Source of the DNA: Nostoc sp. T09
Lineage (GTDB): Bacteria; Cyanobacteriota; Cyanobacteriia; Cyanobacteriales; Nostocaceae
Direction: 5' to 3'
NCBI RefSeq assembly: GCF_002154695.1
Contig: NZ_MTAV01000055.1
Coordinates: 1 to 64,000, forward strand
DNA length: 64,000 nucleotides
The notes below the pieces were generated by a model. The model worked only from the letters and a program-made list of their open reading frames with translations, was not told the origin of the DNA and did not search any database. The position numbers and the translations under genes are program-made. Positions 9,564-32,202 of the stretch are shown piece by piece; position 1 is the first letter of the stretch, and every line of letters starts with the position of its first letter.

Positions 9564-9791
9564 AAGTCGTCAGCGATCGCATTGCTGGTAGGACAACAAG
9601 ATTATAATTCCTATATTGTATGGCTGAGATGTGGTGCATTGTGCGTTGTGGCAAAACACCTTACTAGCTAATATTGCGATCGCATTTCTTCTGTAGAGTG
9701 TGTTGTTCAGACTCTCCTTTGCAAGAGTTGTACAAAAGAGGATATTCTTTTTCGCTATCTTAGAACAGTAAATCATTCACCGATCGCGCCG

Positions 9792-10373
9792 ATGGTTGCT
9801 TTACCCGATCCTATTTTGATGAGTGCAGAAGAATATCTGGTTTGGGAACCCACCCAAGAACAACGCTACGAGTATTGGGATGGCGAAGTTGTGGCGATGA
9901 GTGGCGGTACACGCAACCATAATCGGGTTTCTGCAAATTTCTTTAAGCTTCTAGATGATGCTTTAGGCGATCGCTCCTGTGAAGTATACATTGTAGATGT
10001 GAAGGTGCAGGTGGAACCTGGGCAAAAGTATTTTTATCCCGATGTGGTAGTGACTTGCGACGATCGCGAAAACGCTCCGCAATTAGTGCAATTTCCCTGC
10101 TTAATTGTCGAAGTGCTATCACCTTCAACGGAAGCCGCCGATCGAGGGAAAAAGTTTGCCAAATACCGCCAATCTCCAACCTTGCAAGAATATGTCTTAG
10201 TACAAGTAGCGCAACCGGGGGTAGAAGTGTTTCGGCGCAACGAACAGGGAAAATGGGTGCTGTCGGAGTATAGTTTGGAAGATAGATTGACACTTGAATC
10301 GGTAAATGTAGAAATAGCAATCGCTGATTTGTACCGACAAGTGCAGTTTGAACCTGAAGAAGCTGAAAGTTGA
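9792..10373 (+). CDS. Uma2-family PD-(D/E)XK nuclease-like protein
   Basis: A 193-residue Uma2 protein divergent from the gene at 8994-9563. It shows the opening EYLVWEPTQEQRYEYWDGEV, the MSGGTRNHNRV motif, the core YPDVVVTCDD and LIVEVLSPSTEAADRGKKF, and the closing EYVLVQVAQPGVEV. The catalytic-type residues (Asp in YPD, Glu in VEVLS, Lys in KKF) are all present, so it should be competent if the family is enzymatic. It is not a recent duplicate of its neighbour. Role unknown. Confidence 0.9.
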   Translation: MVALPDPILMSAEEYLVWEPTQEQRYEYWDGEVVAMSGGTRNHNRVSANFFKLLDDALGDRSCEVYIVDVKVQVEPGQKYFYPDVVVTCDDRENAPQLVQFPCLIVEVLSPSTEAADRGKKFAKYRQSPTLQEYVLVQVAQPGVEVFRRNEQGKWVLSEYSLEDRLTLESVNVEIAIADLYRQVQFEPEEAES

Positions 10374-10424
10374 ATAGATGAGCGATATAGGATGCGTTAG
10401 CGTAGCTCACCGTAGGTATCGCCC

Positions 10425-17075: not shown

Positions 17076-18029
17076 ATGCTTAATACTCTCAGCCCGCTTG
17101 CAGAAGATTTGGTAGGTCAAAGCTATACTTCTCCTGGCTACTTACAAACACAGCGCCGGATTCGTTCTCTCATAGATAGATATCTTGCAGTTGAAAAACT
17201 ACGCGATCGCTTGGAGGATTTACCTATACAGTTTGCCAATCCCCAACCGCGTCCCTGGAAATCTATTGATTGGCAAGCGATTAACTCCAATCAAATTATC
17301 GGCATAGATCCAGAAGTATTTCTATCAATCTTGATAGGTGCAATGGATACAGAAGCCCCGATTCGCGGCTATACCCAAACAAGTAGAAAGTATTTGGCAA
17401 AATTGCATCCTGAGATGGCGCGGTTTGTTGGTGGAAGTGTCGGTGAAGATGGGGAACTACTAGAACCTGGCTTATGGGAAAAAGAAGAACGTCAACATAC
17501 ACCTGCATTAATTAAGGTTTACACCCAACTCACAGGGGAAAAAATTACCCCCAAACTTCGCACAGTTCGCGGCTACCTCCCCACAGATGACCCTTACGAA
17601 GACCTGTATCGCCACGGCTTACACCGCGTAGCCACAGAATACGGTGCAACCTGTCTTTATCTTTGGCTGATGGCTTACACCACAGGCCCGCTTCAGGATG
17701 TTCTTGAGGAATTAGCACAAGACGAAATCAACCACATGACCAAATTCTGGGGCTTTGGCGTCTGGGCTTTCCCCGATACTGGACTGATGCGCATTGGACG
17801 CACCTTAATCAAAACACGCTCTCAAAACTATCAGCGCAACAACCTCATGCGTACCCTACGTCGCATGATGGGTACACTAAACTGGAACGCTTGGTCTTTG
17901 AGCAATAAAGGCACTCTCCTCTTCACCTTCAGCTACACAATGCTTCGTTTGTGGAGTTGGAACAATAGCCTGTCACCAAAGTATTTACAAGATTTATTTG
18001 GAATTACTTCTGTTGCGCCAAAGAATTAA
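17076..18029 (+). CDS. acyl-ACP-desaturase-like diiron protein
   Basis: A 317-residue ferritin-superfamily protein. The carboxylate and histidine ligands expected for a desaturase-type diiron site can be followed: Glu93 (MDTEAPIRGY), Glu138-x2-His141 (KEERQH), Glu188 (VATEYGA) and Glu217-x2-His220 (QDEINH). Their order and spacing resemble soluble stearoyl-ACP desaturase. Family enzymes use O2 and ferredoxin electrons to desaturate or hydroxylate acyl or related substrates. There is no signal peptide; the C-terminal hydrophobic part (GTLLFTFSYTMLRLW) may touch membranes. It lies 130 bp upstream of a prenyltransferase gene on the same strand. The substrate is unknown. It is the first of three diiron proteins within 13 kb. 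Confidence 0.75.
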   Translation: MLNTLSPLAEDLVGQSYTSPGYLQTQRRIRSLIDRYLAVEKLRDRLEDLPIQFANPQPRPWKSIDWQAINSNQIIGIDPEVFLSILIGAMDTEAPIRGYTQTSRKYLAKLHPEMARFVGGSVGEDGELLEPGLWEKEERQHTPALIKVYTQLTGEKITPKLRTVRGYLPTDDPYEDLYRHGLHRVATEYGATCLYLWLMAYTTGPLQDVLEELAQDEINHMTKFWGFGVWAFPDTGLMRIGRTLIKTRSQNYQRNNLMRTLRRMMGTLNWNAWSLSNKGTLLFTFSYTMLRLWSWNNSLSPKYLQDLFGITSVAPKN

Positions 18030-18159: not shown

Positions 18160-18906
18160 ATGACCTCATTACCCCCAGATTTAAACCCGCAACACCTACC
18201 CCAACACATAGCCGTCATCATGGATGGTAACGGCAGATGGGCAACAAGCCGAGGATTAACCCGCATAGCCGGACATCGTCAAGGCGCAAAAACCCTCAAA
18301 GAACTATTGCGTTGCTGCAAAGATTGGGGAATCAAAGCACTGACAGCCTACGCTTTCTCTACAGAAAATTGGCGACGTCCGGTTGAAGAAGTAGATTTTC
18401 TCATGCTGTTATTTGAAAGACTTCTGAGGCGCGAGTTAGCCCAAATGCATCAAGAAGGCGTGCGAATCTCCTTTATTGGCGATTTATCGGCTTTACCTCA
18501 GACTCTACAAATCCAAATGCAACGTTCAATGGCAGAGACATTGCACAATCAAGCCATACACTTTACTGTTGCAGTCAACTACGGTAGCCGCAACGAAATT
18601 ACTAGAGTTTGTCGTCAAGTAGCGGAACTCGTGGAACGTGGCGAACTCAGTCCAGAAGAGGTGAATGAAAGTTTTGTAACGCAACATCTTTACACAGCCG
18701 ACACTCCCGAACCAGATTTGCTGATTCGTACTAGCGGTGAGATGCGCTTGAGTAATTTCCTTCTATGGCAAATGGCTTATACAGAGATGTACTTTACCGA
18801 TATTCTTTGGCCAGATTTTGACAGAGAAGCATTTCATCAGGCTTTGTTGAGTTACCAAAAACGCGATCGCCGTTTCGGTCAAGTTAAAAGTGCAATCGCA
18901 GTCTAA
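18160..18906 (+). CDS. cis-prenyltransferase (UppS-type polyprenyl diphosphate synthase)
   Basis: A 248-residue isoprenyl transferase of the undecaprenyl diphosphate synthase family. It condenses isopentenyl diphosphate onto an allylic primer to make cis-polyprenyl chains. Signatures are complete: IMDGNGRWA with the Mg-binding Asp, the helix [34 protein letters not shown] and the C-terminal [19 protein letters not shown]. The length is normal. The first motif differs from the usual cyanobacterial UppS (here [17 protein letters not shown]), so this may be a second, specialised paralogue; I cannot test that from this window. Context with a diiron desaturase-like gene upstream suggests a possible role in lipid or terpenoid modification, but ordinary cell-wall carrier synthesis is the default. 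Confidence 0.9.
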
Positions 18907-19891: not shown

Positions 19892-20605
19892 TTAATAATT
19901 TTCAGGAAATGGCATGGAACCCATATGTGGATAGCTCAAAGCTAACAATCCATTACCTTCGTGTAAAACTGTAGAAAAACATGACAGAATCAAAGATTGA
20001 AGCCTTTCTGCATAACTTTCATTACAGTTCCCTCTTGCCCCAATTGTACGCGCTCCTTGAACAAATTCATCAATGCTGACTTCCGCAAAAATTTCCTCAA
20101 TAATTGTTAAAACATTAGCAATATCTTCTGGTAAAACAAACATATTACCCAAGTAGCCAGGAAGTCTACTTGCTCTTTTCCAACCTAAACCTCCCCATAA
20201 TATTTCAGTTGCACCAACGCGATTAGTTATGATTAACTCTAATAAAGCTTGACTCATCGGCATAGAGATTATTGGAGCATCACCGATAAAAAGATAATCA
20301 AATATTTCTGTAAAACTGCGTGGGAAGAAAAGATGATAAACGTTATGTAAATCTTCCCAATCAAAAATATCTTCATTCTCTGCTTTATTAACAAAAGCGT
20401 TAGGAAAATAACTATTAAACGTCTCTTGCTCCTGCGGATGAAATTGGCTTTTATTTTCTGTCCGATTTTGCAGATAATTTTGTAGTTTATTTAAGATTTG
20501 TGAATTCTCTACAGCTTCATCAAATACCTTTTTAACCTTAAGAACATCAAATGGCTGTATCCTCAGCAAACACCAAACTGGATCTGCGCTCATATTCTTA
20601 CTCAA
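19892..20605 (-). CDS. hypothetical protein (237 aa)
   Basis: Not recognised. It is a soluble protein with an N-terminal PVWCLLRIQPFDVLKVKKVF, an acidic aromatic middle (DIFDWEDLHNVYHLFFPRSF), a hydrophobic helix MPMSQALLELIITNRVGATE and a Gly/Trp segment ILWGGLGWKRASRLPGYLGN. The C-terminus has HEGNGLLALSYPHMGSMPF. No signal peptide, metal motif or repeats. It is divergent from the Mpo1-like gene, separated by 144 bp. The composition matches the neighbourhood and the frame is intact, so I consider it a real gene of unknown role. Confidence 0.6.
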   Translation of the reverse strand: MSKNMSADPVWCLLRIQPFDVLKVKKVFDEAVENSQILNKLQNYLQNRTENKSQFHPQEQETFNSYFPNAFVNKAENEDIFDWEDLHNVYHLFFPRSFTEIFDYLFIGDAPIISMPMSQALLELIITNRVGATEILWGGLGWKRASRLPGYLGNMFVLPEDIANVLTIIEEIFAEVSIDEFVQGARTIGARGNCNESYAERLQSLILSCFSTVLHEGNGLLALSYPHMGSMPFPENY

Positions 20606-20749: not shown

Positions 20750-21169
20750 ATGAGTCAACTCAATTTTAATACTCAACAAAATTTGAGACATAAGATAAAC
20801 AATCAGATTCTAGATCATCCTTTTACAGATTATTGGGATATTTTTGTTCTTAAACATCAGCATCCAATTAATATCGCTCTCCATATTTTAGGGATACTCT
20901 TTTTTTACGGGTTGCTCTTTTCTACTTGGAAGTTGCAAAACTTTTGGTTACTCCTAGGATTACCATTAACTCAGTTAATTGGATTAACCGGACATTTTTT
21001 GTTTGAGCGTAGCCATATTGATTTACAAGATGCTCTTTTCTCTTGGCGGGCTTCTTACTGTTTAGGTAAAATGCTATTCAGGGTTGTAATGGGTAAATAT
21101 CAAGATGATATTCGCCAACGGCAAGAAATATTAAATAATTATCAGTCAAGTAAGTATGCAAATATTTAA
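20750..21169 (+). CDS. Mpo1-like (DUF962) membrane protein
   Basis: A 139-residue protein (the ATG at 20750 is preferred over an upstream TTG). It resembles the DUF962/Mpo1 family: HPINIALHILGILFFYGLLF is the first hydrophobic segment with the family's His-Pro and His positions, then the helix FWLLLGLPLTQLIGLTGHFL with FERSH. Yeast Mpo1 is an Fe(II)-dependent dioxygenase in alpha-oxidation of 2-hydroxy fatty acids; bacterial relatives are uncharacterised. The conserved histidines (H in HPxN, in ALH, in GHF and in ERSH) are present. Its last codons overlap the start of the Rieske gene by 14 bp, so the two are translationally coupled and probably work on the same substrate. Confidence 0.75.
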   Translation: MSQLNFNTQQNLRHKINNQILDHPFTDYWDIFVLKHQHPINIALHILGILFFYGLLFSTWKLQNFWLLLGLPLTQLIGLTGHFLFERSHIDLQDALFSWRASYCLGKMLFRVVMGKYQDDIRQRQEILNNYQSSKYANI

Positions 21170-22184
21170 CAACTGGAATATAGTTGCTAAGGGTTGGTAT
21201 ATTGCCTGTCCTAGTAGTGAATTACCTAAAAGCAAAGCAAAATCTGTAGAAATTTGCGGACAAAGAATTGCTATCTTTCGCGGTGAAGATGGGCAAGTGC
21301 GGGCTTTGGATGCTTACTGTCCACATCTGGGAACAGATTTAGGAATTGGACAGGTTGACGGTAACTGGATTCGTTGTGCATTTCATCAGTGGGCATTTGA
21401 TGAAGCTGGACTATGCCAGAATATTCCCTGTCAATCAGAGATTCCAGCTAAAGCGAAAGTACAAGCTTATGCAACAGAAGAAAAGTATGGTTTCATCTGG
21501 GTCTATCCTGATACTGTAGCATCAGAAGGTGTGGCTGATTTTGATGAATTGCAGGGTAAAGAAATTGTTGCACAACCTGATACTGCATTTGAAAGAAGTT
21601 GCCATCACCATATTTGTATGATGAATGGTATTGATGCTCAACATTTAAAAACAATTCATCATTTAGATATCAAGATGGATTTGTCGCTACATCGCAGCGA
21701 ATTAGGTACACAAATTGACTTTACAATGCGGGGAAAATTTCCTCAAACAACCTGGCGAGAACAGTTAGGTCAAAAATTTCTTGGTTCTACCTATGAGTAT
21801 TCTATGCGGTATGCTGATGGTTGCATCGGCTTGTTAACAATGATGAAAAATGTGCGGCTGTTTCCGCCATTGCACATGATCTATGCCTACACGCCAATTG
21901 CACCTGGAAGAACGCGAATTCAACCGATTTATGTAACTGAAAAACGTAAAGGAATTTTGGGATATCTGCTTAGTAAGTTTTTGTTATTCTGTACTCGCTT
22001 GGCTTACTATATGCTCAGAGATGAAGATGGCAAGATTTACGACAATATTCGCTTTCATCCTAATTTACTTTTGAGTATCGATCGGCCATTGGCTCAGTAT
22101 ATGGAGTATGTGAATCAGTTAGAACCGTCTCGCTGGTCACAAAAGATAGCAAGTCTTTCTAAATCTGAGCATAGTAAAGCATAA
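21156..22184 (+). CDS. Rieske non-haem iron oxygenase (KshA-like)
   Basis: A 342-residue oxygenase. The N-terminal Rieske [2Fe-2S] domain has Cys55-x-His57 (CPHLGT) and Cys74-x2-His77 (CAFHQW). The mononuclear iron site is seen as Asp160-x2-His163-x4-His168 (IDAQHLKTIH). The start (WNIVAKGWYIACPSSELP) and overall layout are like ring-hydroxylating monooxygenases acting on large hydrophobic substrates: 3-ketosteroid 9-alpha-hydroxylase KshA and the DAF-36/Neverland sterol desaturases. No membrane anchor is clear, although LGYLLSKFLLFCTRLAYYML (about 268-287) is hydrophobic. It overlaps the Mpo1-like gene by 14 bp. Electrons could come from the ferredoxin encoded at 30312. Substrate unknown; a second Rieske gene is at 25599. 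Confidence 0.9.
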   Translation: MQIFNNWNIVAKGWYIACPSSELPKSKAKSVEICGQRIAIFRGEDGQVRALDAYCPHLGTDLGIGQVDGNWIRCAFHQWAFDEAGLCQNIPCQSEIPAKAKVQAYATEEKYGFIWVYPDTVASEGVADFDELQGKEIVAQPDTAFERSCHHHICMMNGIDAQHLKTIHHLDIKMDLSLHRSELGTQIDFTMRGKFPQTTWREQLGQKFLGSTYEYSMRYADGCIGLLTMMKNVRLFPPLHMIYAYTPIAPGRTRIQPIYVTEKRKGILGYLLSKFLLFCTRLAYYMLRDEDGKIYDNIRFHPNLLLSIDRPLAQYMEYVNQLEPSRWSQKIASLSKSEHSKA

Positions 22185-22777
22185 CCCAATATTTAAAATT
22201 AATGTTTATTGGGTTTACTAACGTCAACATAATCTACGAGCGATCGCACTCTGGTTTTATCTCTTGGACAAGCAGCCAATAAGCCCATCGATATCCTGCA
22301 TCAATATATTTTTTGCAGTCTACACAAGCAAAATAGCAACAATTCATTAAAGTTAAGAAAATTAAATTTTAGAGTTTATTATCACTTTAGTGCAAGCGTA
22401 AGTCCTAACATTGTCAGTCGATGCAATCGCATTGTCACCCGATACAATCGCATTGTCACTCGATACAATCGCATTGTCAGTCGATACAATCGCATTGTCA
22501 CTCGATGCAATGGCATTGTTACCCAATACAATCGCATTGTCAGTCGATGCAATCGCATTGTCACTCGATGCAATGGCATTGTTACCCGATACAATCGCAT
22601 TGTCACTCGATACAATCGCATTGTTACTATTTATTCACCATTTCTGTTAAACATTATTAAGAGTAGTGTAAATAACCATTTTGAGATCTGTCACATTACT
22701 CAGTAACAACACTAATTTGCTAGATAGAGTGTTAATACAAAACATCTACCAAAGAGATTTTAGGTAAATTCCACATA
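22185..22777. other. 593-bp intergenic region with tandem array
   Basis: The spacer contains no convincing gene. Its centre is the ten-unit 21-bp array at 22418-22627; the remainder is AT-rich. Long open frames on both strands across the array are a by-product of the 21-bp (7-codon) period. Confidence 0.8.
22418..22627. repeat. 21-bp tandem array, ten units
   Basis: Ten consecutive 21-bp units with no spacer, preceded by a partial unit ending ATTGTCAG. Each unit contains a perfect or near-perfect inverted repeat ACAAT-CGC-ATTGT (variants GCAATCGCATTGT, GCAATGGCATTGT) followed by the linker CACTCGAT or CAGTCGAT. With two helical turns per unit, all palindromes face the same side of the helix, as in arrays bound by a protein. 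It lies between the first Rieske gene and the 22778 gene. It is not a CRISPR: there are no unique spacers. Function unknown. Confidence 0.9.
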
Positions 22778-23518
22778 ATGAAGAGTTGGCTAGTTCCTGT
22801 ACGAAAGCTGCAAATGAGCGATCGCATTGCTATGTATGCATTGCTCAATAATCACTTTAAAGGTGTAACCTGGGATGCATTCCAGGCTGATCTAGAGCGC
22901 AAAAACTGGGTGTTGTTGTTAAGGGAAGAAATAACCAATGCTCTAAAAGGGTTTTCAACTCTGATGTTGTCCCAAACAACTTTTTCTGGAGAGCGAATTA
23001 CTGTAGTATATTCCGGCGATACAATTGTCGATCCTAGTGCTTGGTCAAGTACAACCTTACCGCGTACTTGGATTGCCGCAGTCAATTTTCTGCGTGAATA
23101 CTATACGGAAAATAAATTGTACTGGCTGTTAATTTGCTCTGGTTTCCGCACTTACCGCTTTCTCCCTACCTTTTGGCAAGAGTTTTACCCTCGCTATGAT
23201 GCAGCAACACCTGCGAATGTTGTGAATTTGATGACAAATTTAGCACAGGAATACTATGGTAATTTTTACCAAGAAGCAACTGGTATTGTCCGCTTCCAGC
23301 AACCGCAAATTCTCCGGGAAGGTTTAATAGAAATTCCCACAGGAAGACAGACTAACCCCCATATCCAGTTTTTCGAGGAAAAAAACCCAGGTTATAGACT
23401 TGGTGATGAATTGGTTTGTTTAACTGAAATTTGTTATGAAAATCTCACCCGTGCTGGACAAAGAATGTGGCAGTCAGAATCGCTGTTAGAATTTGTGCAA
23501 GATTCTGTGCTCATCTAA
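22778..23518 (+). CDS. hypothetical protein, possibly acyltransferase-fold
   Basis: A 246-residue soluble protein upstream of, and close (21 bp) to, the SulP gene. The first 130 residues have an order of elements that reminds me of a GNAT fold: strand VPVRKLQMSDRIAMYALLNN, a helix, paired strands NWVLLLREE and LKGFSTLMLS, a strand ERITVVYSGDTIVDPSAW and a helix TWIAAVNFLREYY, followed by LYWLLICSGFRTYRFLPTFW. The typical acetyl-CoA loop is not evident, so catalytic activity is uncertain. The C-terminal half carries conserved-looking QQPQILREGLIEIPTG and ELVCLTEICYENL. Probably in an operon with the transporter. Confidence 0.6.
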   Translation: MKSWLVPVRKLQMSDRIAMYALLNNHFKGVTWDAFQADLERKNWVLLLREEITNALKGFSTLMLSQTTFSGERITVVYSGDTIVDPSAWSSTTLPRTWIAAVNFLREYYTENKLYWLLICSGFRTYRFLPTFWQEFYPRYDAATPANVVNLMTNLAQEYYGNFYQEATGIVRFQQPQILREGLIEIPTGRQTNPHIQFFEEKNPGYRLGDELVCLTEICYENLTRAGQRMWQSESLLEFVQDSVLI

Positions 23519-23539
23519 AACCTACGCATCAACTTGTGT

Positions 23540-25240
23540 ATGAGAGTTAAAAATGACGAGGTAGCAATATCTACTAACCTGGAAGCACCACAGCGTTTCG
23601 GTGTCAGTCGCTTGTTTAGTAATCTACGTGGCGATTTGACGGGAGGATTGACAGCGGCGGTGGTAGCATTGCCTTTGGCATTAGCTTTTGCTGTGGCTAG
23701 TGGAGTGGAACCAAAAGCGGGACTCTACACTGCTATTGTGGCAGGAATTGTCGCGGCAATCTTTGGCGGTTCACCAGTCCAGATTACAGGCCCTACAGGT
23801 GCAATGGCTGTGATTTTGGTGGGAATTGTCGCCAAGTACGGCTTAGAGAAAGTTTGGATTGCTGGGGTAATCGCGGGAATTATCCAGATTGCTTTAGGGG
23901 TTGCGAAACTTGGACAATTAGTTAAGTTTATTCCCTATCCAGTGACGGCAGGTTTTACTAATGGTATTGCCGTTATTATTTTTTGTGGTCAGTTAAATAA
24001 TTTCTTTGGCTTACAACTACCGCGTCAAGAACATTTTTTACCAGGACTTTGGCAAAGTATAACTCATGTAGAAGCGATGAACTGGGCAGCCGTTGTGTTG
24101 GCAATGCTGGTAATTGCAACCAATATTTTATGGCCCAAGATTAATACCACAATACCAGGTTCTTTAATGGGGCTGGTGTTAGCAACAGCGATCGCATCTT
24201 ATTTTCATCTCAATGTCCCGACAATTGGAGCCATCCCGCAAGCTTTACCGATGCTTCAAGGTATTCCCCACTGGAATGATTTTGGCTTGATTCGGGAACT
24301 GATTAATCCAGCTTTGGCTTTAGCAGCACTGGGAAGCATTGAATCCTTGCTGTCAGCAGTGGTAGCTGATGGTATGACTGTGAGCGAGAAACACAATAGC
24401 GATCGCGAATTAATTGGTCAAGGTTTAGCAAATATTATTATTCCATTTTTTGGTGGCATCCCAGCCACAGGTGCGATCGCGCGGACTGCTGTCAATGTTC
24501 GTTCTGGCGGTAAAACCCGGCTATCTGGGGTAATTCATGGCGTTGCTTTAGCCATTATTGTGTTAACTTTAGCACCCTTAGCAGGGCAGATCCCCTTAGC
24601 GGCACTGGCTGGTATTTTGATGGTGGTTAGTCTGCGGATGATTGAGTGGGAAGCCATTGGCTTACTGCTACGCGCTACTTACTCCGACTTTGCAGTGATG
24701 ATTCTCACCTGGTTAGTAACAATATTATTTGACTTGGTTCTCGCTGTTGAAGTGGGATTAATTGCAGCCGGAGCCTTATTTATCAAACGCATGAGCGATT
24801 TAAGCTTGGCGAAAATCCCGGAAACGGAAGTATTTCCCCCTGGTATTCCTCTGGAATTAGGCAAAGAAATTGCGGTGTATCGTGTAGATGGCCCCGTATT
24901 TTTTGGTGCTGCGGAAAGGTTTGTTACCTTCCTAAGAGAGCAACCAGAAGTGAAGTATTTAATTCTGCGGTTGCGGTTTGTACCCAACATGGATACCACT
25001 GGATTAGTCGCGCTAGAGGATATTTACCATGATTTGGAACGGCATAATTGTCGCTTAATTCTCACAGGTTTACAACCTCAAGTTCAACAATTACTAGAAC
25101 GTTCGGGATTGTTAAAAACAATCGGTTTATCTAATTGTTTTGAAACAACTACCGATGCGATTTACTCTATCACTCCTCAATCTTCTCAACCTGTAGCGGC
25201 TAATTTTCCATCAAAGGAATTGATGGAATTAAAGGATTGA
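23540..25240 (+). CDS. SulP-family anion transporter with STAS domain
   Basis: A 566-residue membrane transporter (the ATG at 23540 is preferred over a TTG six bases upstream). The SulP core is clear: GGLTAAVVALPLALAFAVAS, the GGSPVQITGPTGAMA motif and about ten to twelve transmembrane helices. A cytoplasmic STAS domain (from about residue 430, EIAVYRVDGPVFFGAAERF to the C-terminus) follows, with LRFVPNMDTTGL. The family includes sulfate and bicarbonate (BicA) transporters; substrate selectivity cannot be read here. It is more like the larger uncharacterised cyanobacterial SulP group than canonical BicA, but that is an impression. It lies inside the Rieske/diiron cluster. Confidence 0.92.
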   Translation: MRVKNDEVAISTNLEAPQRFGVSRLFSNLRGDLTGGLTAAVVALPLALAFAVASGVEPKAGLYTAIVAGIVAAIFGGSPVQITGPTGAMAVILVGIVAKYGLEKVWIAGVIAGIIQIALGVAKLGQLVKFIPYPVTAGFTNGIAVIIFCGQLNNFFGLQLPRQEHFLPGLWQSITHVEAMNWAAVVLAMLVIATNILWPKINTTIPGSLMGLVLATAIASYFHLNVPTIGAIPQALPMLQGIPHWNDFGLIRELINPALALAALGSIESLLSAVVADGMTVSEKHNSDRELIGQGLANIIIPFFGGIPATGAIARTAVNVRSGGKTRLSGVIHGVALAIIVLTLAPLAGQIPLAALAGILMVVSLRMIEWEAIGLLLRATYSDFAVMILTWLVTILFDLVLAVEVGLIAAGALFIKRMSDLSLAKIPETEVFPPGIPLELGKEIAVYRVDGPVFFGAAERFVTFLREQPEVKYLILRLRFVPNMDTTGLVALEDIYHDLERHNCRLILTGLQPQVQQLLERSGLLKTIGLSNCFETTTDAIYSITPQSSQPVAANFPSKELMELKD

Positions 25241-25598
25241 AATTAAAGGCCGATTAAAGTAGATAAACGCCGATGTAGACGCGTAACGGCTACTCTTACG
25301 AGAACGCCTAGCGGCGTTAGCGCAGCGGTAGCGACGAAGGAGCGTCACCCGCAGGGTACACAGATAAGTTGCAAAGTTAAAATGTAGTGGCGTGTCTAGA
25401 CTAAAGTTATGCATTAGATTTCTAATTGATAGGGCGCTAAAGCACAACTACGAACATTTTTTATTGCAACATTTTAGCCTTGTCACGCCAGTAGGGTGTG
25501 TTATCGCTTTAGCGTAACGCACCATCAACAATTCTTTTAAATATACATATTCCCTATTCAAACACGCTAAATACTTCTGGTAAAACAATATAAATTCT
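25241..25598. other. 358-bp intergenic region with repeats
   Basis: No gene was found. The left part is a GC-rich mosaic of short cyanobacterial repeats (AGCGGCGTTAGCGCAGCGGT and similar). The right part contains copy 2 of the GTAGGGTGTGTT palindrome. The promoter for the second Rieske gene is presumably near 25540-25598 but no motif is clear. Confidence 0.6.
25491..25541 (+). repeat. dispersed palindromic repeat (GTAGGGTGTGTT type), copy 2
   Basis: Reads GTAGGGTGTGTTATCGC, TTTA, GCGTAACGCACC and the tail CAACAATTCTTTTAAA. GGTGTGTTATCGC pairs with GCGTAACGCACC with few mismatches. The tail matches copy 1 at 15284-15333. Confidence 0.7.
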
Positions 25599-26681
25599 AT
25601 GCATTGTCCCAGCCCAAATTCAATCTTTAATAATCCGAGAAAATTTGTTGAGGGATGGTATTGGGCATTACCGTCACAAAAGTTAAAAGTCGGCAAGATA
25701 AAAGCTGTAAAATTACTGGGTAGAAACCTGGCAATTTATCGAGGAGTTAGTGGCCAGGTAGTGGCGGTAGATGCTTATTGTCCGCACATGGGCGCTCATT
25801 TAGCAGAGGGTAAGGTAGAAGGTGAGGGAATTCGCTGCTTCTTCCATAATTGGAAATACGATGAGCGCGGAATTTGTGTAGACGTTCCTTCTCTAAGTAA
25901 ACCGCTACCTGTGTGTATCAAAACCTGGTCAACAGCAGAGAAATACGGCATGATTTGGGTTTGGGTGGGAGAGGAAAAGCCAAGTTCGCTGCCTTTTGTA
26001 CCGGAATTAGAACAGGTAGACTGCGATTATATATTGGGGACTCGGTTTATCAAAAACTGCCATCCTAATGTGTTGTTGATTAATGCGATCGATGCTCACC
26101 ACTTCAATACAGTACACAATCTACCTTTGGAGATTGTATTTGATTCCCAAGACCTCAACTCCAACGCTATTACCTTCAGCAACACGACACGGGGAGGCGA
26201 TGATTCTTGGTTAATCCGCCTGATTCGTCCTTTGTACCGCAATGAAGTTACTTATAGTATGTGTTACTGGTATGGCAGCACTGGGACTGTGACACTGGGG
26301 CCGGATTTTCTCCATTTCTATATTATATTTGCGCTGCGAATGTTAGAAGGTGGCAAAACCGAAGGGCAAACCATCTTAGTAACTCCCAAGCGATCTGGGT
26401 GTTTGGGATGGGGTGTCAATCGTGGGTTGCTGTGGCTAACGCAGCAGGTTGGTAATTACTTCGCTAAAGGTGATACGCAGGTATTTCAGACAATTCAGTT
26501 TGACTTAAAGACACCCACCAAAGCGGATCAGTCAATTGTGCAATTTATCCAGCACGTTAATCGCCAAAAAGCCTTAACTTGGGGAAATTGGGAAACTGTT
26601 GATAGTCCAGAAGAAAGCGATTCTCCACAGGAGACACTTCGCGATCGCCATCCTTCATTATTTGAACATGAAAAACATTGA
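25599..26681 (+). CDS. second Rieske non-haem iron oxygenase (KshA-like)
   Basis: A 360-residue paralogue of the Rieske protein at 21156. Rieske cluster ligands are Cys61-x-His63 (CPHMGAHL) and Cys80-x2-His83 (CFFHNW). The catalytic iron triad is Asp165-x2-His168-x4-His173 (IDAHHFNTVH). The opening RKFVEGWYWALPSQKLKVGK matches the KshA/DAF-36 type. The two paralogues are clearly diverged outside the motifs, so they probably perform different steps. Its C-terminal codons overlap the start of the ferritin-like diiron gene by 14 bp, the same overlap as between the Mpo1-like and first Rieske genes. Electrons may come from the ferredoxin at 30312. Confidence 0.9.
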   Translation: MHCPSPNSIFNNPRKFVEGWYWALPSQKLKVGKIKAVKLLGRNLAIYRGVSGQVVAVDAYCPHMGAHLAEGKVEGEGIRCFFHNWKYDERGICVDVPSLSKPLPVCIKTWSTAEKYGMIWVWVGEEKPSSLPFVPELEQVDCDYILGTRFIKNCHPNVLLINAIDAHHFNTVHNLPLEIVFDSQDLNSNAITFSNTTRGGDDSWLIRLIRPLYRNEVTYSMCYWYGSTGTVTLGPDFLHFYIIFALRMLEGGKTEGQTILVTPKRSGCLGWGVNRGLLWLTQQVGNYFAKGDTQVFQTIQFDLKTPTKADQSIVQFIQHVNRQKALTWGNWETVDSPEESDSPQETLRDRHPSLFEHEKH

Positions 26682-27585
26682 TTTAGAATATAAAATTGCC
26701 GGACTTGACCTACCACACATAGATCCCAATGACCGATTACAACGCATACTAAAAGCAGCATTACCAAGTCAAAGCGATAATGCGTCGCATCCTCAATCAA
26801 ATTATTGGGATGCTGGATTTTTTAACCTGTATCAAGTCAAAATTTTTCAACAAGCGAGTCAAGCCGAACAATCTGCCATCCTTCAACTTCTCAATCGCAG
26901 CCTGTTGGAAGAATCGTATTTCATTGAGAAAGCAGGCGTTGGCTACATGGCAAAAATGGTGTTGTTAGCCGAAACAGTTGAAGAGCGAATGCTCTACGGA
27001 CTGTTTACAGCTGATGAAGCTACCCACCTCAGCCAGATAACCCATTTTTTACCAGAACTCGAACCAACTAACAGCAACGATCCATTTCTGAGTTTACTAG
27101 CAGAAGTAGTTGAAAGTGCAGACAAAACAGTATTGTTGTTTGTGCTTCAGGTTGTATTAGAAGGATGGGGCTTAAGTCATTACCGCTGCTTGGCGAAAGA
27201 ATGCCATCATCCCATCCTAGCGGAACTGTTCTCAAGTTTTCTACAAGCAGAAGCCCGCCATCACGGTACGGGAACAATGCTGTTTAACCGAAATCCTGTT
27301 TCAGCATCCAGTCAAACAGCTGCAATCGATGTGTTAGCCAGCTTTCTGTCTATGGTGCAAGTAGGGCCACAAAGTGTCTTATCAGCTATTGAAAAAGTAA
27401 AAGGACATCTGGTGCGATCGCAAAAAATCCAAATCCTCGAAGAATTGGATACAGAAACCCACAGTGGTACGCGATTACAAATACTGCGATCGCTCATGCG
27501 AGGATCATCCGCAGAGGCGATCGTTCAAGCCTTAGACGAACGAGGAGCCTTTGAACCACTCCCCCCTCATAAATGTGTGTATTAA
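26668..27585 (+). CDS. ferritin-like diiron protein
   Basis: A 305-residue protein, start chosen at ATG 26668 because upstream codons only read through the Rieske C-terminus. A four-helix diiron site is visible: Glu82 (LLEESYF), Glu117-x2-His120 (DEATH), Glu165 (LEGWG) and Glu195-x2-His198 (EARHHG). That is the ferritin/ribonucleotide-reductase-like pattern. Many members with this pattern are oxygenases or oxidases rather than iron stores. The overlap with the second Rieske gene implies coupled translation and a shared pathway. The C-terminal 60 residues (VKGHLVRSQKIQILEELDTE and after) are an extra helical region. It lies at the end of the plus-strand run; a MITE-like repeat touches its stop codon. 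Confidence 0.78.
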   Translation: MKNIDLEYKIAGLDLPHIDPNDRLQRILKAALPSQSDNASHPQSNYWDAGFFNLYQVKIFQQASQAEQSAILQLLNRSLLEESYFIEKAGVGYMAKMVLLAETVEERMLYGLFTADEATHLSQITHFLPELEPTNSNDPFLSLLAEVVESADKTVLLFVLQVVLEGWGLSHYRCLAKECHHPILAELFSSFLQAEARHHGTGTMLFNRNPVSASSQTAAIDVLASFLSMVQVGPQSVLSAIEKVKGHLVRSQKIQILEELDTETHSGTRLQILRSLMRGSSAEAIVQALDERGAFEPLPPHKCVY

Positions 27586-27674
27586 GTAATTAAACAGAAT
27601 TAATTACATAGATTTTCTTCTTGTTCCCTGTTCCCTGTCTTCACGAATGAATTTAATTTTGTCCAACTACTTAA
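27582..27674 (-). repeat. MITE-like dispersed element, copy B
   Basis: Related in reverse orientation to 3343-3448: ends TTAAGTAATTAAACAGAATT and (inward from the right) TTAAGTAGTTGGACAAAATT, with central TGTTCCC heptamers. It fills the whole gap between two convergent genes, and its TTAA ends supply the stop codons of both. A bidirectional terminator role is plausible. Confidence 0.65.
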
Positions 27675-28420
27675 TAAGTATCATTAGTTAACACTGAGGC
27701 AAGGTGAGCAGGACGAGACAAGTGTGGGCAATGTCCTCCAGGCAGTTCAATTGCATCAACTCCCAAGCGTTTACGTGCAGCGTAGCGTGACCATACAGGA
27801 GAAATTATCCGGTCATCATTACAAACAATATATTTATATTCTACATTTGGTAAAGAATTCATGGGATTGACCTCATAAATATATGCCATTGATTGCTGCG
27901 AACGACTCTTTGAAAGTGCCCAGCGCATTACATCCGGTTGGCAATCATGATAGAAAAGTTCAATTAATACTGCTTCATCAGAAAAGTCTTTACCAACAGA
28001 AACTGGATTAAACATCTCAGGTTCATCATCGAATTCTTTCCGTTGACTTAACTCTTTTGGTTCGTAATTTAGTGTTTTAAGGCTATCAGCATCGAGATTA
28101 TGAGAAAATTGATCGAGCGTACTAATTCCTGGGTATGGAATCAGCGCAGTCAGGAATACAAGTTGGCGTACTTGATGAGCTTCTGCAACGAGGGGAATAA
28201 CAGTACCAGCCATCGAATGACCAACCAGCACAATATCATCATCAGTTTTTGGCAGCGCTTGAAGTACTACATCTGCAAATTGCGATAAACTTGCAGATGC
28301 ATCCTCAATTGGCAAATCCATTGCTACTGTTTTGTGACCTTGCGCTTCTAAATAAGGAATTAACAAATCCCAACACCAAGCGCCTTGAAATGCACCGTGA
28401 ACTAGACAAAAAAGACTCAT
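27671..28420 (-). CDS. alpha/beta hydrolase (esterase-like)
   Basis: A 249-residue alpha/beta-hydrolase. The oxyanion-hole motif is FCLVHGAFQGAWCWDLL at the N-terminus. The nucleophile is the Ser in VGHSMAGTVIP (near residue 69), and the last His lies in GGHCPHLSRPAHLA. The family resembles plant hydroxynitrile-lyase or methyl-salicylate/methyl-jasmonate esterase-like proteins and their bacterial relatives (EstC type). No signal peptide. It is encoded against the direction of the surrounding oxidative genes but lies inside the cluster, so a role in hydrolysing an ester of the same compound is conceivable and unproven. Confidence 0.88.
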   Translation of the reverse strand: MSLFCLVHGAFQGAWCWDLLIPYLEAQGHKTVAMDLPIEDASASLSQFADVVLQALPKTDDDIVLVGHSMAGTVIPLVAEAHQVRQLVFLTALIPYPGISTLDQFSHNLDADSLKTLNYEPKELSQRKEFDDEPEMFNPVSVGKDFSDEAVLIELFYHDCQPDVMRWALSKSRSQQSMAYIYEVNPMNSLPNVEYKYIVCNDDRIISPVWSRYAARKRLGVDAIELPGGHCPHLSRPAHLASVLTNDTY

Positions 28421-28525
28421 AGCGATTTTAGGTAAGTTTTTTGATTTGTATTTAACTTCTAGTTTACATCTTGCACCATTATCAAAAAGCCTTGCTACTA
28501 GCTCACCGATTTATAGATACTTTTT

Positions 28526-29731
28526 ATGAAAAATACTATTCACCAACTATCAGATAGTCCAACAACTTATCGCAAATTACAAATTAACCACACCCGCAAC
28601 AAACAGCAGGATCATACTGCTTTAATGGATGAAGCAGCCGCCAAGTTCCGCTATGAAGATTGTCAAAAAGAGTATTGGAATCCCGAAGAATTTTCCCTAC
28701 TCTACGGTACACCTTTATGGCAGCAATCCAGCGAACATCAGCGTGTAATTTTAAATCAACTTTACTGGGTAGCATACTACTCACAAATTGTTTCCGCCGA
28801 GATTGCAACTATCTATTTCAATCAAACTAGTGCAGCTGGACTTTACGCTCAAGAAGACTTCCGCTTAATCTGCGATACTTTAGATCTAGAATCCTCCCAA
28901 GAAAGGGCGCACATTAATGCATTTCGCACAATTGCTAAACAGGTTGAGCAAGCATTATTTGGGGAACTCATCTTTACTTACCCCATGCGCGGCCCGTTTA
29001 CCGAAACGATGGTTTATGCTGACACTAACGCCCTAAAAACTTGGTGGAAAAAAATTCAACTTCAATACTTCGGGCTAATTTCTGCGAATAACACCTTTTT
29101 AGCTTGTCAGTATTTTACAGTCCGAGGAGTGCGGACACTAAATGGCAAATTAGTACAGCATAAACTCAGCAATTATTATCAAAAACATCCCCATCCAGAT
29201 ACTGCTCCGATTCCTGCCAAAATTTCTTACTATCACTTTCTGGATGAAAGCTTTCACTTCAATAGTTCGACAATTCTATCTCACGATGTTGTTACTTGCC
29301 TTGCTCCACCAACTGCATTTGAGCGACTAGTTGCTAATTTAGGACTGGTAGGATGTCAGCGAGATCACTTTCACTTTTCGGCGGCGATTAACGGGATTTT
29401 TTGGTATGATCCAGCACTGTATGGCAAGATTTATCGTGTGCTGCGATCGCCTATTTTTGATATGAGCGATAGTGATGCTAAAGAAATGATGCGTCGTTGT
29501 TTCACCCAGGAGTCCGAAGGGTTACATCGTAGTTTTTTAACTCATCAGGAAGCGATGGCATCTTATAAAGTATATTTGGAAAAACTCGATTATCTTTGGC
29601 AACGAAATCGAGAAATGTCATTAATGGGAGCTAATTCAATTTCTCGATATTTGGCAACTCAACAACAGGCTTTTCAACGCTTTGAGCAGCATCAAAGTGA
29701 GAATTTACATGGATTTGTAGCAAATGTGTAG
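28526..29731 (+). CDS. AurF-like diiron oxygenase homologue
   Basis: A 401-residue protein with ligands spaced like the AurF/CmlI diiron N-oxygenases: Glu92 (SAEIATIYF), Glu126-x2-His129 (ERAHINAF) and His237-x3-Glu241-x2-His244 (HFLDESFH). From memory, AurF has Glu-35-Glu-x2-His and His-x3-Glu-x2-His, which fits well. The additional Glu ligand of AurF, expected about 25-30 residues before His237, is not obvious. Either the site is altered or the alignment shifts. Substrates of the family are aryl amines and others; here unknown. The divergent start is 105 bp from the hydrolase. The C-terminal region is helical (ISRYLATQQQAFQRFEQH). Confidence 0.7.
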   Translation: MKNTIHQLSDSPTTYRKLQINHTRNKQQDHTALMDEAAAKFRYEDCQKEYWNPEEFSLLYGTPLWQQSSEHQRVILNQLYWVAYYSQIVSAEIATIYFNQTSAAGLYAQEDFRLICDTLDLESSQERAHINAFRTIAKQVEQALFGELIFTYPMRGPFTETMVYADTNALKTWWKKIQLQYFGLISANNTFLACQYFTVRGVRTLNGKLVQHKLSNYYQKHPHPDTAPIPAKISYYHFLDESFHFNSSTILSHDVVTCLAPPTAFERLVANLGLVGCQRDHFHFSAAINGIFWYDPALYGKIYRVLRSPIFDMSDSDAKEMMRRCFTQESEGLHRSFLTHQEAMASYKVYLEKLDYLWQRNREMSLMGANSISRYLATQQQAFQRFEQHQSENLHGFVANV

Positions 29732-29880
29732 AGTATTCAAAACAAGCTAAACTGTGTGTATAAGCTAGTGGAATATTGATAAGACTTGAAACAAATCTTA
29801 ATTTATATATTTGCTAAAACAAAAGTCATTTACATAGCTTTTGTCAGAAGATATCAGTGGACGTTAAAAAGGTAACTGTC

Positions 29881-30072
29881 ATGCAAAAAGAATATATGGA
29901 GATTTTAGAAAGATTACTCGATCAATTGACATTATCAGCAATCTTAGAACTGTTAGAACGAATATGTCACAAAAAAGCAGAAAATTTGAGAACTCATTGG
30001 CAAGATGAAACCTCAGCAAAGCTTTGGGATAAAGCTGCTAGACAGATAGAACAGATAAATGTTGATGTTTGA
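29881..30072 (+). CDS. small hypothetical protein (63 aa)
   Basis: A short helical protein starting MQKEYMEILERLLDQLTLSA and ending with a charged helix WDKAARQIEQINVDV. The ATG at 29881 is preferred over an in-frame GTG at 29857 because AAGG lies 8 bp before it. It resembles small helical proteins seen throughout Nostoc genomes but I cannot name a family. It lies between the AurF-like and ferredoxin genes on the same strand. Confidence 0.55.
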   Translation: MQKEYMEILERLLDQLTLSAILELLERICHKKAENLRTHWQDETSAKLWDKAARQIEQINVDV

Positions 30073-30094
30073 TGAAACAATAAAGTCAGTAAAT

Positions 30095-30162
30095 AAAAGA
30101 GATTAGGCATTGGTAAGATCCGCATTACTGACAACGTGCGAATTATGTGCCTGATCTTTCTT
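30095..30162 (+). terminator. long imperfect hairpin
   Basis: AAAAGAGATTAGGCA (30095-30109) pairs with TGCCTGATCTTTCTT (30148-30162), with a possible inner CGCAT/GTGCG stem. The 3' arm is T-rich. It may terminate transcription of the small gene upstream or be part of a structured leader of the ferredoxin mRNA. Confidence 0.4.
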
Positions 30163-30311
30163 ATTTAAAAGACAGTATTTTTGATACTCGCTAAAGACGC
30201 TTTCCTTGATGACACTGCTGGTAATCCCCAATTTAAAATTGAGCGATCGCGGGCTGTTTAGTGCTAAATATTTTAAGTTCGTGTTGCTGTGGGTTAATTG
30301 ATGAATTAATT

Positions 30312-30599
30312 ATGTCTGACCTTTGTAAGATATCTTTTCCAGGAACTGATTATCCTCCCATCAATCTACAACCTCATCAAAATTTATCTGAGCATCTTAC
30401 AATTCAGAATTCACCTGTATTATTTGGTTGTCGCACTGGTATTTGCGGAACTTGCTTAGTTGAAGTGATTGGTGACATTCCTCCGCCTCAACTAGATGAA
30501 CAGGAAATGCTGGAAACATTAGCTCCCAAGCATCCCCATGCTCGTTTGGCTTGTCAGCTTGACCTCACAGCTAATGTCGAAATTCGCAGACTAGAATGA
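30312..30599 (+). CDS. [2Fe-2S] ferredoxin
   Basis: A 95-residue plant-type ferredoxin-fold protein with cluster ligands Cys40, Cys45, Cys48 and Cys81 (FGCRTGICGTC and LACQL). The C-x4-C-x2-C-x(about 30)-C pattern is that of plant-type and bacterial redox ferredoxins. The ATG at 30312 gives a normal-length protein; an upstream frame extension would add only a short Cys-rich segment. Position at the end of the plus-strand cluster makes it the natural electron donor for the two Rieske oxygenases and diiron proteins. A matching reductase gene is not in the window; the cell's ferredoxin-NADP reductase or photosystem I could reduce it. It is shorter and more divergent than photosynthetic PetF. Confidence 0.9.
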   Translation: MSDLCKISFPGTDYPPINLQPHQNLSEHLTIQNSPVLFGCRTGICGTCLVEVIGDIPPPQLDEQEMLETLAPKHPHARLACQLDLTANVEIRRLE

Positions 30600-30849: not shown

Positions 30850-32202
30850 TTAATTTTCAGGCTTGCCTTCGCCTTCACTAAGCTTCTGCCAAGGTGAACG
30901 CCTGTTAGGTTTAGATTTTATCTCTTCGCTTTTTTCTTTAGGTATCCGCATCTGTTCAATTACTGGTTGCATTGCAGAATTAGACATTTGCAATGTTGAA
31001 AGAGGTATCCGCATCTGTTCAATTACTTGTTGCATTGTCGAATTAGACATTTGCAATGTTGAAAGAGGTATCCGTATCTGTTCAATTACTTGTTGCATTG
31101 CCGAATTAGGCATTTGCAATGTTGAAAGAGGTATCCGCATCTGTTCAATTACTTGTTGCATTGCCGAATTAGACATTTGCAATGTTGAAAGAGGTATCCG
31201 CTGTTCAAATGCTTTTTTTAGCTCAGAATCAGTTATCTCTATATTTTCAATTACTTGCCTAGAAGTCTCACATTCTTGTTCATCAATCAATTCAATATCG
31301 GCAATTGTATTTGTTTCTTCGATTGATCGTGGATCAATCTCCAGCATCAATTTCTCCTTAGCTATTTCAAGAAAACGTTGAGTTCGATACATCCAAAATG
31401 GCTGTTTCACATATTCCTGAAATTCACGTCTTAGTTCTATGTGTGGAGCAACTGTCTCTCCATTTTTCTTTATCCACCAGTCTTCTTTTTTCTCCCCTGT
31501 TACAAAAACAATTGGTCGAGACTCTTTTTGTGCAAAAGTTAATATTTGTTTCCAAAGAAGCAAGTCTCCATACTTCCGTTCATCCTTCTTGTCTTTAGCA
31601 TCCATAAAGCCAGGAGGTTGTAATTTTTTGTACCTATCTTCGGCTTCCTTATACAGGCTCTGCAAAGTTGGCTCATCGTAAGGTTCTCCTACTTTTGAAT
31701 CAAATAGTGACAAAAGTCTTTCCAAAATACTGTCTTTGTCTGCATCAAGTGGAGAATGAGCATTGGCAAGTTCATTTATCTTTTCTCGAAAAGCTTTTTC
31801 CACCTCATCCACTGCATTAAGATAGTTTTTCTGCACATCAAACAAATACGCCACTTCAGCAGCTACAATCCTTCCTGCTTGGTTAAGATTACCTCGAAGA
31901 CTGCTAAAGCTGTGTTGTTCAGACTTCCATTTCTCAAGTGCTGATAAAGCTTTGTGAAAAGATGCTGCCTCTGAATCAATGATTTCTTCTCGCCGTCTAA
32001 AAAACTCGTCGGCTACTTGATAAGGTAGCCAAATCCTGTTTTGAAGATGTTCCAGTATTTTTAGGAAATCCTCTACGGTAGAACGCGATACTCGATATAA
32101 ATCCAAGAGAAAATTTGTATCAAACACAAAAATGGCATTTTCCCATAACTTTGAAAAATCAGCCTCAGATGGCCGAAGTCTCCAGGAGAATAAGTTTCTC
32201 AT
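30850..32202 (-). CDS. PIN-like domain protein with C-terminal 21-residue repeats
   Basis: A 450-residue protein. The N-terminal two thirds are a large PIN-like (PIN_8 type) nuclease domain: IFVFDTNFLLDLYR with the first acidic residue, VADEFFRRREEI, a long helical insertion, RKYGDLLLWKQI and IVFVTGEKKEDWW. Acidic residues at the expected places suggest metal-dependent RNase activity. Residues from about 330 carry four almost identical repeats of 21 residues (RIPLSTLQMSNSAMQQVIEQ and one more), ending in a basic tail. The repeats come from a 63-bp tandem array and could be a flexible or amphipathic scaffold. No antitoxin partner is adjacent, apart from the decayed frame at 30659. Large PIN_8 proteins are thought to act in defence or RNA processing. 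Confidence 0.82.
   Translation of the reverse strand: MRNLFSWRLRPSEADFSKLWENAIFVFDTNFLLDLYRVSRSTVEDFLKILEHLQNRIWLPYQVADEFFRRREEIIDSEAASFHKALSALEKWKSEQHSFSSLRGNLNQAGRIVAAEVAYLFDVQKNYLNAVDEVEKAFREKINELANAHSPLDADKDSILERLLSLFDSKVGEPYDEPTLQSLYKEAEDRYKKLQPPGFMDAKDKKDERKYGDLLLWKQILTFAQKESRPIVFVTGEKKEDWWIKKNGETVAPHIELRREFQEYVKQPFWMYRTQRFLEIAKEKLMLEIDPRSIEETNTIADIELIDEQECETSRQVIENIEITDSELKKAFEQRIPLSTLQMSNSAMQQVIEQMRIPLSTLQMPNSAMQQVIEQIRIPLSTLQMSNSTMQQVIEQMRIPLSTLQMSNSAMQPVIEQMRIPKEKSEEIKSKPNRRSPWQKLSEGEGKPEN
30941..31210. repeat. 63-bp tandem repeat inside PIN gene
   Basis: Four full copies (30941, 31004, 31067 and 31130) and a partial fifth starting at 31193, each beginning GGTATCCG. They encode the 21-residue repeats at the C-terminus of the PIN protein. 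Copies are nearly identical, so length variation between strains is likely. Confidence 0.92.

Follow-up and report, generated by a model that had tools for sequence, protein, structure and literature searches.

A Rieske-type CylC gene cluster divided between contigs of Nostoc sp. T09 and its proposed carrier-free acyl-conjugate pathway

A 64,000-nucleotide stretch of Nostoc sp. T09 DNA (positions 1 to 64,000 of contig NZ_MTAV01000055.1; here, the window) carries, between positions 20750 and 30599, a group of oxidative genes that almost certainly belongs to the published Rieske-type CylC clusters. The class as such is already known and orphan. The window is a further member that holds the first half of the cluster, and the second half, consisting of the third Rieske gene (R3) and the block FAH-LbH-GH3, lies in trans elsewhere in the same genome. 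We consider it somewhat probable that the complete gene set specifies a carrier-free acyl-conjugate (aminolipid-like) pathway with oxidative tailoring and likely halogenation. New with respect to the open-licence literature are the GH3/GNAT(/LbH) module, a 19-genome presence profile that includes unlinked GH3 genes, and a glutamine (Gln211) that marks the clade of the CylC homologues. All eight genes named in an earlier note on this DNA were recovered in place; a ninth, U246 (22778–23518, + strand), was absent from its list, yet is a conserved member. The window lies on contig C259 in a genome (G000) of 8.25 Mb in 270 contigs, which encodes reaction-centre proteins (PF00124).

Eusebio et al. 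(2021; PMC8406957) list 95 CylC clusters, 36 of which are 'Rieske-containing', orphan and the largest group. In the available text, these have two to four Rieske proteins, a single CylC homologue and mostly a protein of the sterol-desaturase family, and acyl transferases and desaturases are found in most of them. Here, two Rieske genes (R1 and R2) lie in the window and a third on contig C261; the CylC homologue, AUR (28526–29731, + strand), gives one match in G000 at E ≤ 1e-10; and FAH, assigned to the sterol-desaturase family PF04116 on its L088 representative, is on contig C79 of the window genome. The AUR proteins of these clusters (76 alignment rows, 74 of them distinct) fell on one side of a branch with a support of 100 in a quick tree, which warns of long branches meeting and held no published PMC8406957 sequences. 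The present clusters resemble those of 2021 in having no recognised carrier protein, in their Nostocales/Oscillatoriales hosts and in that their product is not named. Beyond that description, GH3, U246 as a GNAT protein, LbH, AMID, GT2 and a SnoaL-like protein are named here as recurrent members; the term GH3 has no occurrence in the main text of PMC8406957. In the open-licence literature, only this paper joins CylC homologues with Rieske clusters, and its available text names no product. The view of the earlier note that the pathway is previously undescribed had thus been overtaken by this list. Carrier-free fatty-acid chemistry was likewise suggested in 2021, when the enzymes were proposed to act on untethered fatty-acid intermediates (PMC8406957).

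AUR had been read as an AurF-like N-oxygenase. We abandoned this assignment, since the Pfam AurF model scored 19.8 bits against a cut-off of 29.6 and residue 125 is Gln in 76/76 cluster rows, where AurF has D135. The p-aminobenzoate N-oxygenase AurF is a distant diiron ferritin-like relative, and by its motifs AUR is better read as a CylC-type dimetal-carboxylate (diiron) halogenase homologue of a 'Rieske' clade. It contains QERAH at 125 and HFLDESFH at 237; Glu122 completes ExxQExxH, so that both halogenase motifs, ExxQExxH and HxxDExxH, are present, and E122, Q125, E126, H129, H237, D240, E241 and H244 were found in all 76 rows. These motifs are shared with CylC and NocO, and the relationship is visible by alignment. 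Dimetal halogenases have nine active-site residues, seven of them within QExxH and HxxDExxH (PMC12101540); the ExxQExxH form of the motif is used in a 2026 preprint (PMC12871659). By alignment alone, Glu92 was assigned to the one signature position left. Unlike CylC and NocO, the AUR clade has Gln throughout at column 211, whereas Glu was found in 20/20 relatives outside it (from 15 genomes; G123 contributes four rows that are near-copies of one another, and a 140-aa fragment on its contig C166 was left out). Gln211 was matched to NocO E252 (AurF E196) by spacing only, with no NocO sequence in the alignment: in the outside relatives that reach the motif, the aligned Glu precedes the first His of HxxDExxH by 27 residues, and NocO positions 252 and 279 (from D282) show the same spacing.

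By analogy with the E252A variant of NocO, which lost chlorination (PMC12101540), the Gln211 enzyme may not be a halogenase. The same lipid pathway would then use it as a hydroxylase, desaturase or other oxidase, with the Glu-to-Gln exchange marking the loss of halogenation. The inactive NocO variant, the clean split of column 211 and the lack of a recognised carrier protein among the recurrent annotated families (CylK-type partners were not searched for) speak for this possibility, which we nonetheless consider somewhat unlikely. The other eight signature positions are kept in 76/76 rows, Gln would add no extra carboxylate at the chloride site and should fit halide binding equally well, and a small subset of sequences with Gln at the E252 position is counted among the halogenase homologues (PMC12101540). 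Because the published alignment allows Gln, Gln211 does not by itself exclude halogenase membership; our alignment now ties Gln at the putative chloride site to the Rieske clade. A further difference from CylC and NocO is that acyl carrier protein (ACP), fatty acyl-AMP ligase (FAAL) and polyketide synthase (PKS) were not recognised as recurrent neighbours of AUR. Four of six mapped loci of the outside relatives (L140, L142, L143 and L151) contain, near the halogenase homologue, open reading frames (ORFs) of ~95–105 aa, ~580–610 aa and one large ORF, which by size only are those expected for ACP, FAAL and PKS.

A search with the R1 protein gave 73 named cyanobacterial loci, whose ORFs were clustered together with those of the window (n = 74). 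R1 itself was found in 72 loci, a count true by construction since R1 was the bait. The other families were AUR (62), the ferritin-like protein FERR (59), R2 (58), the ferredoxin FDX (56), U246 (52), R3 (51), the PF04116 hydroxylase FAH (48), the hexapeptide-repeat protein LbH (42), an Mpo1-like protein (35), GH3 (33), the amidohydrolase AMID (29), the glycosyltransferase GT2 (19), a SnoaL-like protein (17) and an alpha/beta hydrolase (5). Many of the 10-kb flanks stop at contig ends, and the sample of 339 genomes described below provides the fair count. Gene order was kept in dozens of loci, and two arrangements recurred. The first, SnoaL-GT2-AMID-Mpo1-R1-U246-R2-FERR-AUR-FDX-R3-FAH-LbH-GH3, is that of Microseira wollei (L064) and, with two ORFs between FDX and R3, of Planktothrix rubescens (L068); the second, U246-R2-FERR-AUR-R1-FDX-R3-FAH-LbH-GH3, is that of Calothrix types and, with U246 not seen, of Laspinema. 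As a rule, FDX directly follows AUR or R1. Other window genes served as a yardstick: those at 16181, 17076, 18160 and 34668 recurred in none of the 73 named loci, those at 19892 and 30850 in one each, and a generic kinase (13000), an ABC transporter (32775) and the gene at 36291 in 8, 11 and 3, with 22 to 55% identity among the matches listed. Two genes that the earlier note had counted in the pathway were dropped as passengers, i.e., local insertions in few loci: a SulP-family transporter (23540–25240, + strand; PF00916 and STAS passed), seen only in L041 and L042 among the named loci, and the alpha/beta hydrolase (27671–28420, − strand; PF12697 passed), present in 5 of 73 and also in L124 and L125. 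The gene pairs starting at 20750/21156 and 25599/26668 do overlap by 14 bp each, as had been remarked. The Mpo1/Rieske overlap of Nostoc punctiforme NIES-2108 (L056) is 17 bp by ORF coordinates, and we therefore take the identical overlaps as incidental.

Pairwise distances of seven gene families were correlated (r of 0.87 to 0.96, Mantel p of 0.001) across the 41 loci in which all seven were present, taken from 51 loci with five; L118 and L131 were omitted as duplicates of L073 and L098. These correlations speak against separate histories, yet vertical descent alone would also produce them, and they do not prove transfer as a unit. A plasmid-borne cluster was rejected: 4 of 72,556 plasmid records matched AUR, all at 26 to 32% identity, and by identity none of these matches belongs to the AUR clade.

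Among the 339 genomes of the phylum, AUR was found in 19 (at least 56% identity and 513.8 bits), and the next match reached 192 bits. R2 occurred in the same 19 genomes, its wider family in 48; FERR in the same 19 plus G058, G091 and G174 (22/339), with a fragment in G338; and 17 of the 19 also encode an R1-like protein. GH3, searched with the Laspinema L088 protein, was present in exactly the same 19 genomes (at least 41% identity and 280 bits; next best G199, 35% and 232 bits). Presence thresholds were chosen after the score gaps had been seen. Fisher tests, in which relatedness is ignored, gave p values of 1.7e-31 for GH3, 2.6e-28 for FERR and 9.4e-21 with genera as units, a genus being positive if any member has the genes. 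The 19 genomes represent 16 genera, 10 families and two classes. The idea of one co-conserved multistep oxidative unit, put forward in the earlier note, is upheld by gene order, correlated distances and shared presence/absence. AUR and FERR lie at most 3 kb apart in 17 of the 19 genomes, 26 kb apart in G018 and on different contigs in G038. GH3 is within 8 kb of AUR in 12, at 26 kb in G027, far away on the same contig in G125 (2.9 Mb) and G076 (about 0.95 Mb), and on a different contig in G000, G093, G116 and G038. GH3 is kept even when distant from AUR, and the link is therefore not only physical. Gaps between genes that reach about 600 bp, one gene on the opposite strand and the SulP and hydrolase insertions might suggest that iron enzymes with independent histories came together here by chance. 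This is already contradicted by the order conserved in dozens of loci, the correlated distances and the presence/absence shared over 339 genomes, and we regard its probability as negligible.

Parts of the cluster also occur on their own. A locus of G058 (L130, 9107–11508) holds U246, FERR and LbH together, with no R2, AUR or GH3 match at the limits used, and is a reduced relative of the cluster. Stand-alone FERR homologues of 45% and 48% were found in L128 (G174, 9827–10786) and L129 (G091, 9649–10611), in genomes without the cluster. R2 homologues of ~46–66% identity were found in 29 genomes that lack the cluster, and the window genome also has one on contig C95 (L138). As a functional clue, the neighbourhoods of 15 stand-alone R2 loci were set aside, being uninformative beyond a putative MerR-like gene near R2 in 9 of the 15.

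In the window genome, the cluster is spread over at least four contigs. C259 runs well beyond the ferredoxin gene with other genes; C261 carries R3 (83% to its Microseira counterpart), C79 FAH-LbH-GH3 and C109 AMID (80%), and each of these three pieces has other neighbours. Of 20 genomes tested, 8 have AMID at 73% or more. Three of the 19 cluster genomes, G004, G018 and G038, are placed in another class by their kinship label and contain U246, R2, FERR, AUR, FDX, R3, FAH, LbH and GH3. These genes share one 20-kb stretch in G004, form two blocks in G018 and are scattered over several contigs in G038; two Melainabacteria CylC homologues have been reported (PMC8406957). A PF00124 reaction-centre match was found in none of these three genomes (95, 94 and, for G038, 73% complete) and in all five other genomes tested, four of which are cluster genomes. 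Because three of the 19 genomes have no such match, the product probably has no link to photosynthesis, and a chlorophyll or photosynthesis role was dropped. We offer as a tentative possibility an ancient pathway of Cyanobacteriota, shared with a lineage without photosystem reaction-centre genes, in which a GH3-GNAT core would make an aminolipid-like acyl conjugate with no carrier protein, and a Gln-type diiron halogenase would then halogenate an unactivated C–H bond of the lipid, whether free or conjugated. If true, this would mean a carrier-free class of radical halogenases and an unreported family of cyanobacterial aminolipids.

The backbone of such a conjugate would be built by GH3, U246 and LbH. 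The core protein U246 matched no Pfam or NCBIfam model, and a search of PDB sequences with its profile was also empty. Its AlphaFold2 model, from 33 sequences (predicted local distance difference test [pLDDT] of 88), gave 83 Foldseek matches at E ≤ 1e-3, the best 50 of which were mostly named acetyltransferases or GNAT, with TM-scores of 0.33 to 0.43 by query length; U246 is predicted from this model to be a GNAT-fold acyltransferase. The L088 representative of GH3 scored 78 bits with PF03321 (cut-off, 23.6), and the pattern of its first motif, SG[ST]...K, was found in 39/39 cluster GH3 proteins. The best NCBIfam models for GH3 and FAH were the ornithine-lipid enzymes OlsH and OlsE, both far below cut-off. 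Bacterial OlsH is a GH3 protein that makes N-acyl ornithine from free fatty acids (PMC12493201). The planctomycete OlsH/OlsI pathway and the present clusters share a GH3-type ligase and an acyltransferase; they differ in that the candidate acyltransferases here are GNAT-fold and hexapeptide proteins, not an alpha/beta hydrolase, and in the large oxidative set that is added.

GH3 proteins of intermediate score (110 to 232 bits) occur in eight genomes outside the 19: G199, G077, G062, G013, G100, G053, G297 and G050. A U246-type GNAT gene lies within five genes of GH3 in seven of these eight, and in 0/16 of the loci with low-scoring GH3 (L183–L198). In all, 22 non-cluster genomes had a GH3 match, and G207 and G298 were not among the loci compared. 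The pairing of these intermediate GH3 genes with U246 suggests that GH3 and U246 form an older backbone module, which was later joined by the oxidative genes. Six of the seven GH3-U246 genomes have a second, putatively GNAT-like gene whose family matched no Pfam model; in G053 this match is weak and lies at the end of a contig. LbH adjoins in two of the seven, a fatty-acid desaturase gene stands next to GH3 in two, and radical-SAM genes were seen in two scanned loci of this type. In L186, L192, L194 and L197, weak FAH-like and Mpo1-like matches are found a few kb away from the low-scoring GH3 gene and perhaps mark another lipid locus.

The window proteins R1 (21156–22184, + strand) and R2 (25599–26681, + strand; in 19/19 cluster genomes) both passed PF00355 and, in agreement with the earlier note, have intact CxH..CxxH and DxxHxxxxH sites. 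The Rieske and mononuclear-iron motifs were found in 80/80 homologues of R1 and 64/64 of R3; for R2, DxxHxxxxH was found in 71/71 and CxH..CxxH in 70/71. FDX (30309–30599, + strand), a plant-type [2Fe-2S] ferredoxin (PF00111, 36 bits versus 21), has the C-x4-C-x2-C..C motif ascribed to it, and the Cys motif was seen in 66/66 homologues; this ferredoxin is the likely electron donor, and ferredoxin, reductase and NADPH were used in the NocO assay (PMC12101540). The histidine boxes of FAH were present in 58/59 sequences. FERR (26668–27585, + strand) passed no Pfam cut-off (17.7 versus 24.7 bits), and its profile gave one chance-level match among PDB sequences. Its two predicted ExxH motifs, E117/H120 and E195/H198, are indeed invariant in an alignment of 38 sequences and, with E87 and E165, which are invariant as well, make up a full E/ExxH/E/ExxH set. 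The AlphaFold2 model from 38 sequences (pLDDT of 83) weakly matched the ferritin-like diiron proteins PaaA, ribonucleotide reductase (RNR) R2, AurF and VlmB (best E of 0.011, none at E ≤ 1e-3), and we treat FERR as a candidate diiron oxidase/oxygenase. The Mpo1-like (DUF962) protein (20750–21169, + strand; PF06127, 34.1 bits versus 24) is encoded by an accessory gene in clusters of the Nostoc/Planktothrix form and is possibly, by its family, a 2-hydroxy-fatty-acid dioxygenase. For Synechocystis sll1297 and sll1869, presumably Rieske genes, the available literature gave no function in this context.

The earlier note had inferred an oxidative pathway for a lipid, steroid-like or terpenoid compound. 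Modification or breakdown of a steroid, hopanoid, carotenoid or other terpenoid is a reading that we consider unlikely. Several Rieske enzymes and sub-threshold matches to SdmA and KshA point in this direction, and we also counted for it that PF04116 is the sterol desaturase superfamily and that the neighbouring gene at 18160–18906 presumably encodes a UppS-like prenyltransferase. The SdmA model, however, gave 73 bits with R1 and 77 with R2 against a cut-off of 600, and the PDB match to KshA, a comparison run for R1, was confined to residues 11–123. These matches thus span mainly the Rieske domain, a generic one, which was the basis of the steroid assignment. Moreover, the best NCBIfam model of FAH is OlsE, GH3 together with GNAT fits acyl conjugation, the gene at 18160 is absent from all 73 related loci, and the recurrent families that were annotated include no recognised terpene cyclase.

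From what was computed here, namely the genes present, their motifs, predicted folds and co-conservation, and the pairing of GH3 with GNAT, we infer for the acyl-conjugate pathway a substrate, an order of steps, halogenation and a product as follows. The GH3-type ligase would activate a free fatty acid with ATP and couple it, with no carrier protein, to an amine that is probably an amino acid, and U246 and LbH would add further acyl groups. The chain would then be oxidised by the membrane hydroxylase FAH, the three ferredoxin-fed Rieske oxygenases and FERR, and AUR would functionalise an unactivated C–H bond, most likely by halogenation, which may be kept or cryptic. In Nostoc/Planktothrix-type clusters, the Mpo1-like protein may shorten the chain, and AMID may cleave an N-acyl intermediate. 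The product would probably be a heavily oxidised lipid and perhaps chlorinated. Nostochlorosides were discarded as candidates, being assigned in the available literature to another cluster, pks3/ngl.

Several observations weigh against this pathway. The OlsH model (NF052613) scored 23.3 bits with GH3 against a cut-off of 620 and OlsE 52 bits with FAH against 475, so that amine and acid are guesses, and stricter GH3 patterns fail in part of the 39 proteins (SG[ST][ST] in 19/39, GLYRYRxGD in 26/39). Gln211 stands in for the very residue whose exchange for Ala abolished chlorination in NocO. Two of the 19 cluster genomes, G119 and G278, have no R1, and FAH and LbH were not seen beside GH3 in G076 and G093, nor beside AUR in G076, in flanks only, with no genome-wide search. 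U246 and FERR occur without the rest of the cluster in G058, FERR alone in G091 and G174, and an intermediate GH3 gene, in two frames, without U246 in G013. Finally, the distance correlations carry no species-tree control. The GH3 and GNAT-fold link gives a testable idea of the backbone made by the largest group of CylC clusters. At the proposed chloride site, the Gln found throughout the clade offers a single-residue test of what sets diiron halogenases apart from other diiron oxidases. A diiron halogenase working without an acyl carrier protein would be a useful catalyst, as Eusebio et al. say (PMC8406957).

Other features of the contig lie outside the cluster. Upstream, a 317-aa protein (17076–18029, + strand) with EERQH and DEINH stretches resembles another ferritin-like diiron protein; it had no Pfam, NCBIfam or PHROGs match and no counterpart in the 73 related loci. 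Downstream of FDX, a 450-aa ORF (30850–32202, − strand) ends in C-terminal near-identical repeats of ~20 residues ('IPLSTLQM.NSAMQQVIEQMR'). Contig C259 (87,306 bases) stops just past a reaction-centre gene fragment at 87181–87288, and a fragment of equal score lies at C89:47999-48106, which suggests assembly breaks at multi-copy genes.

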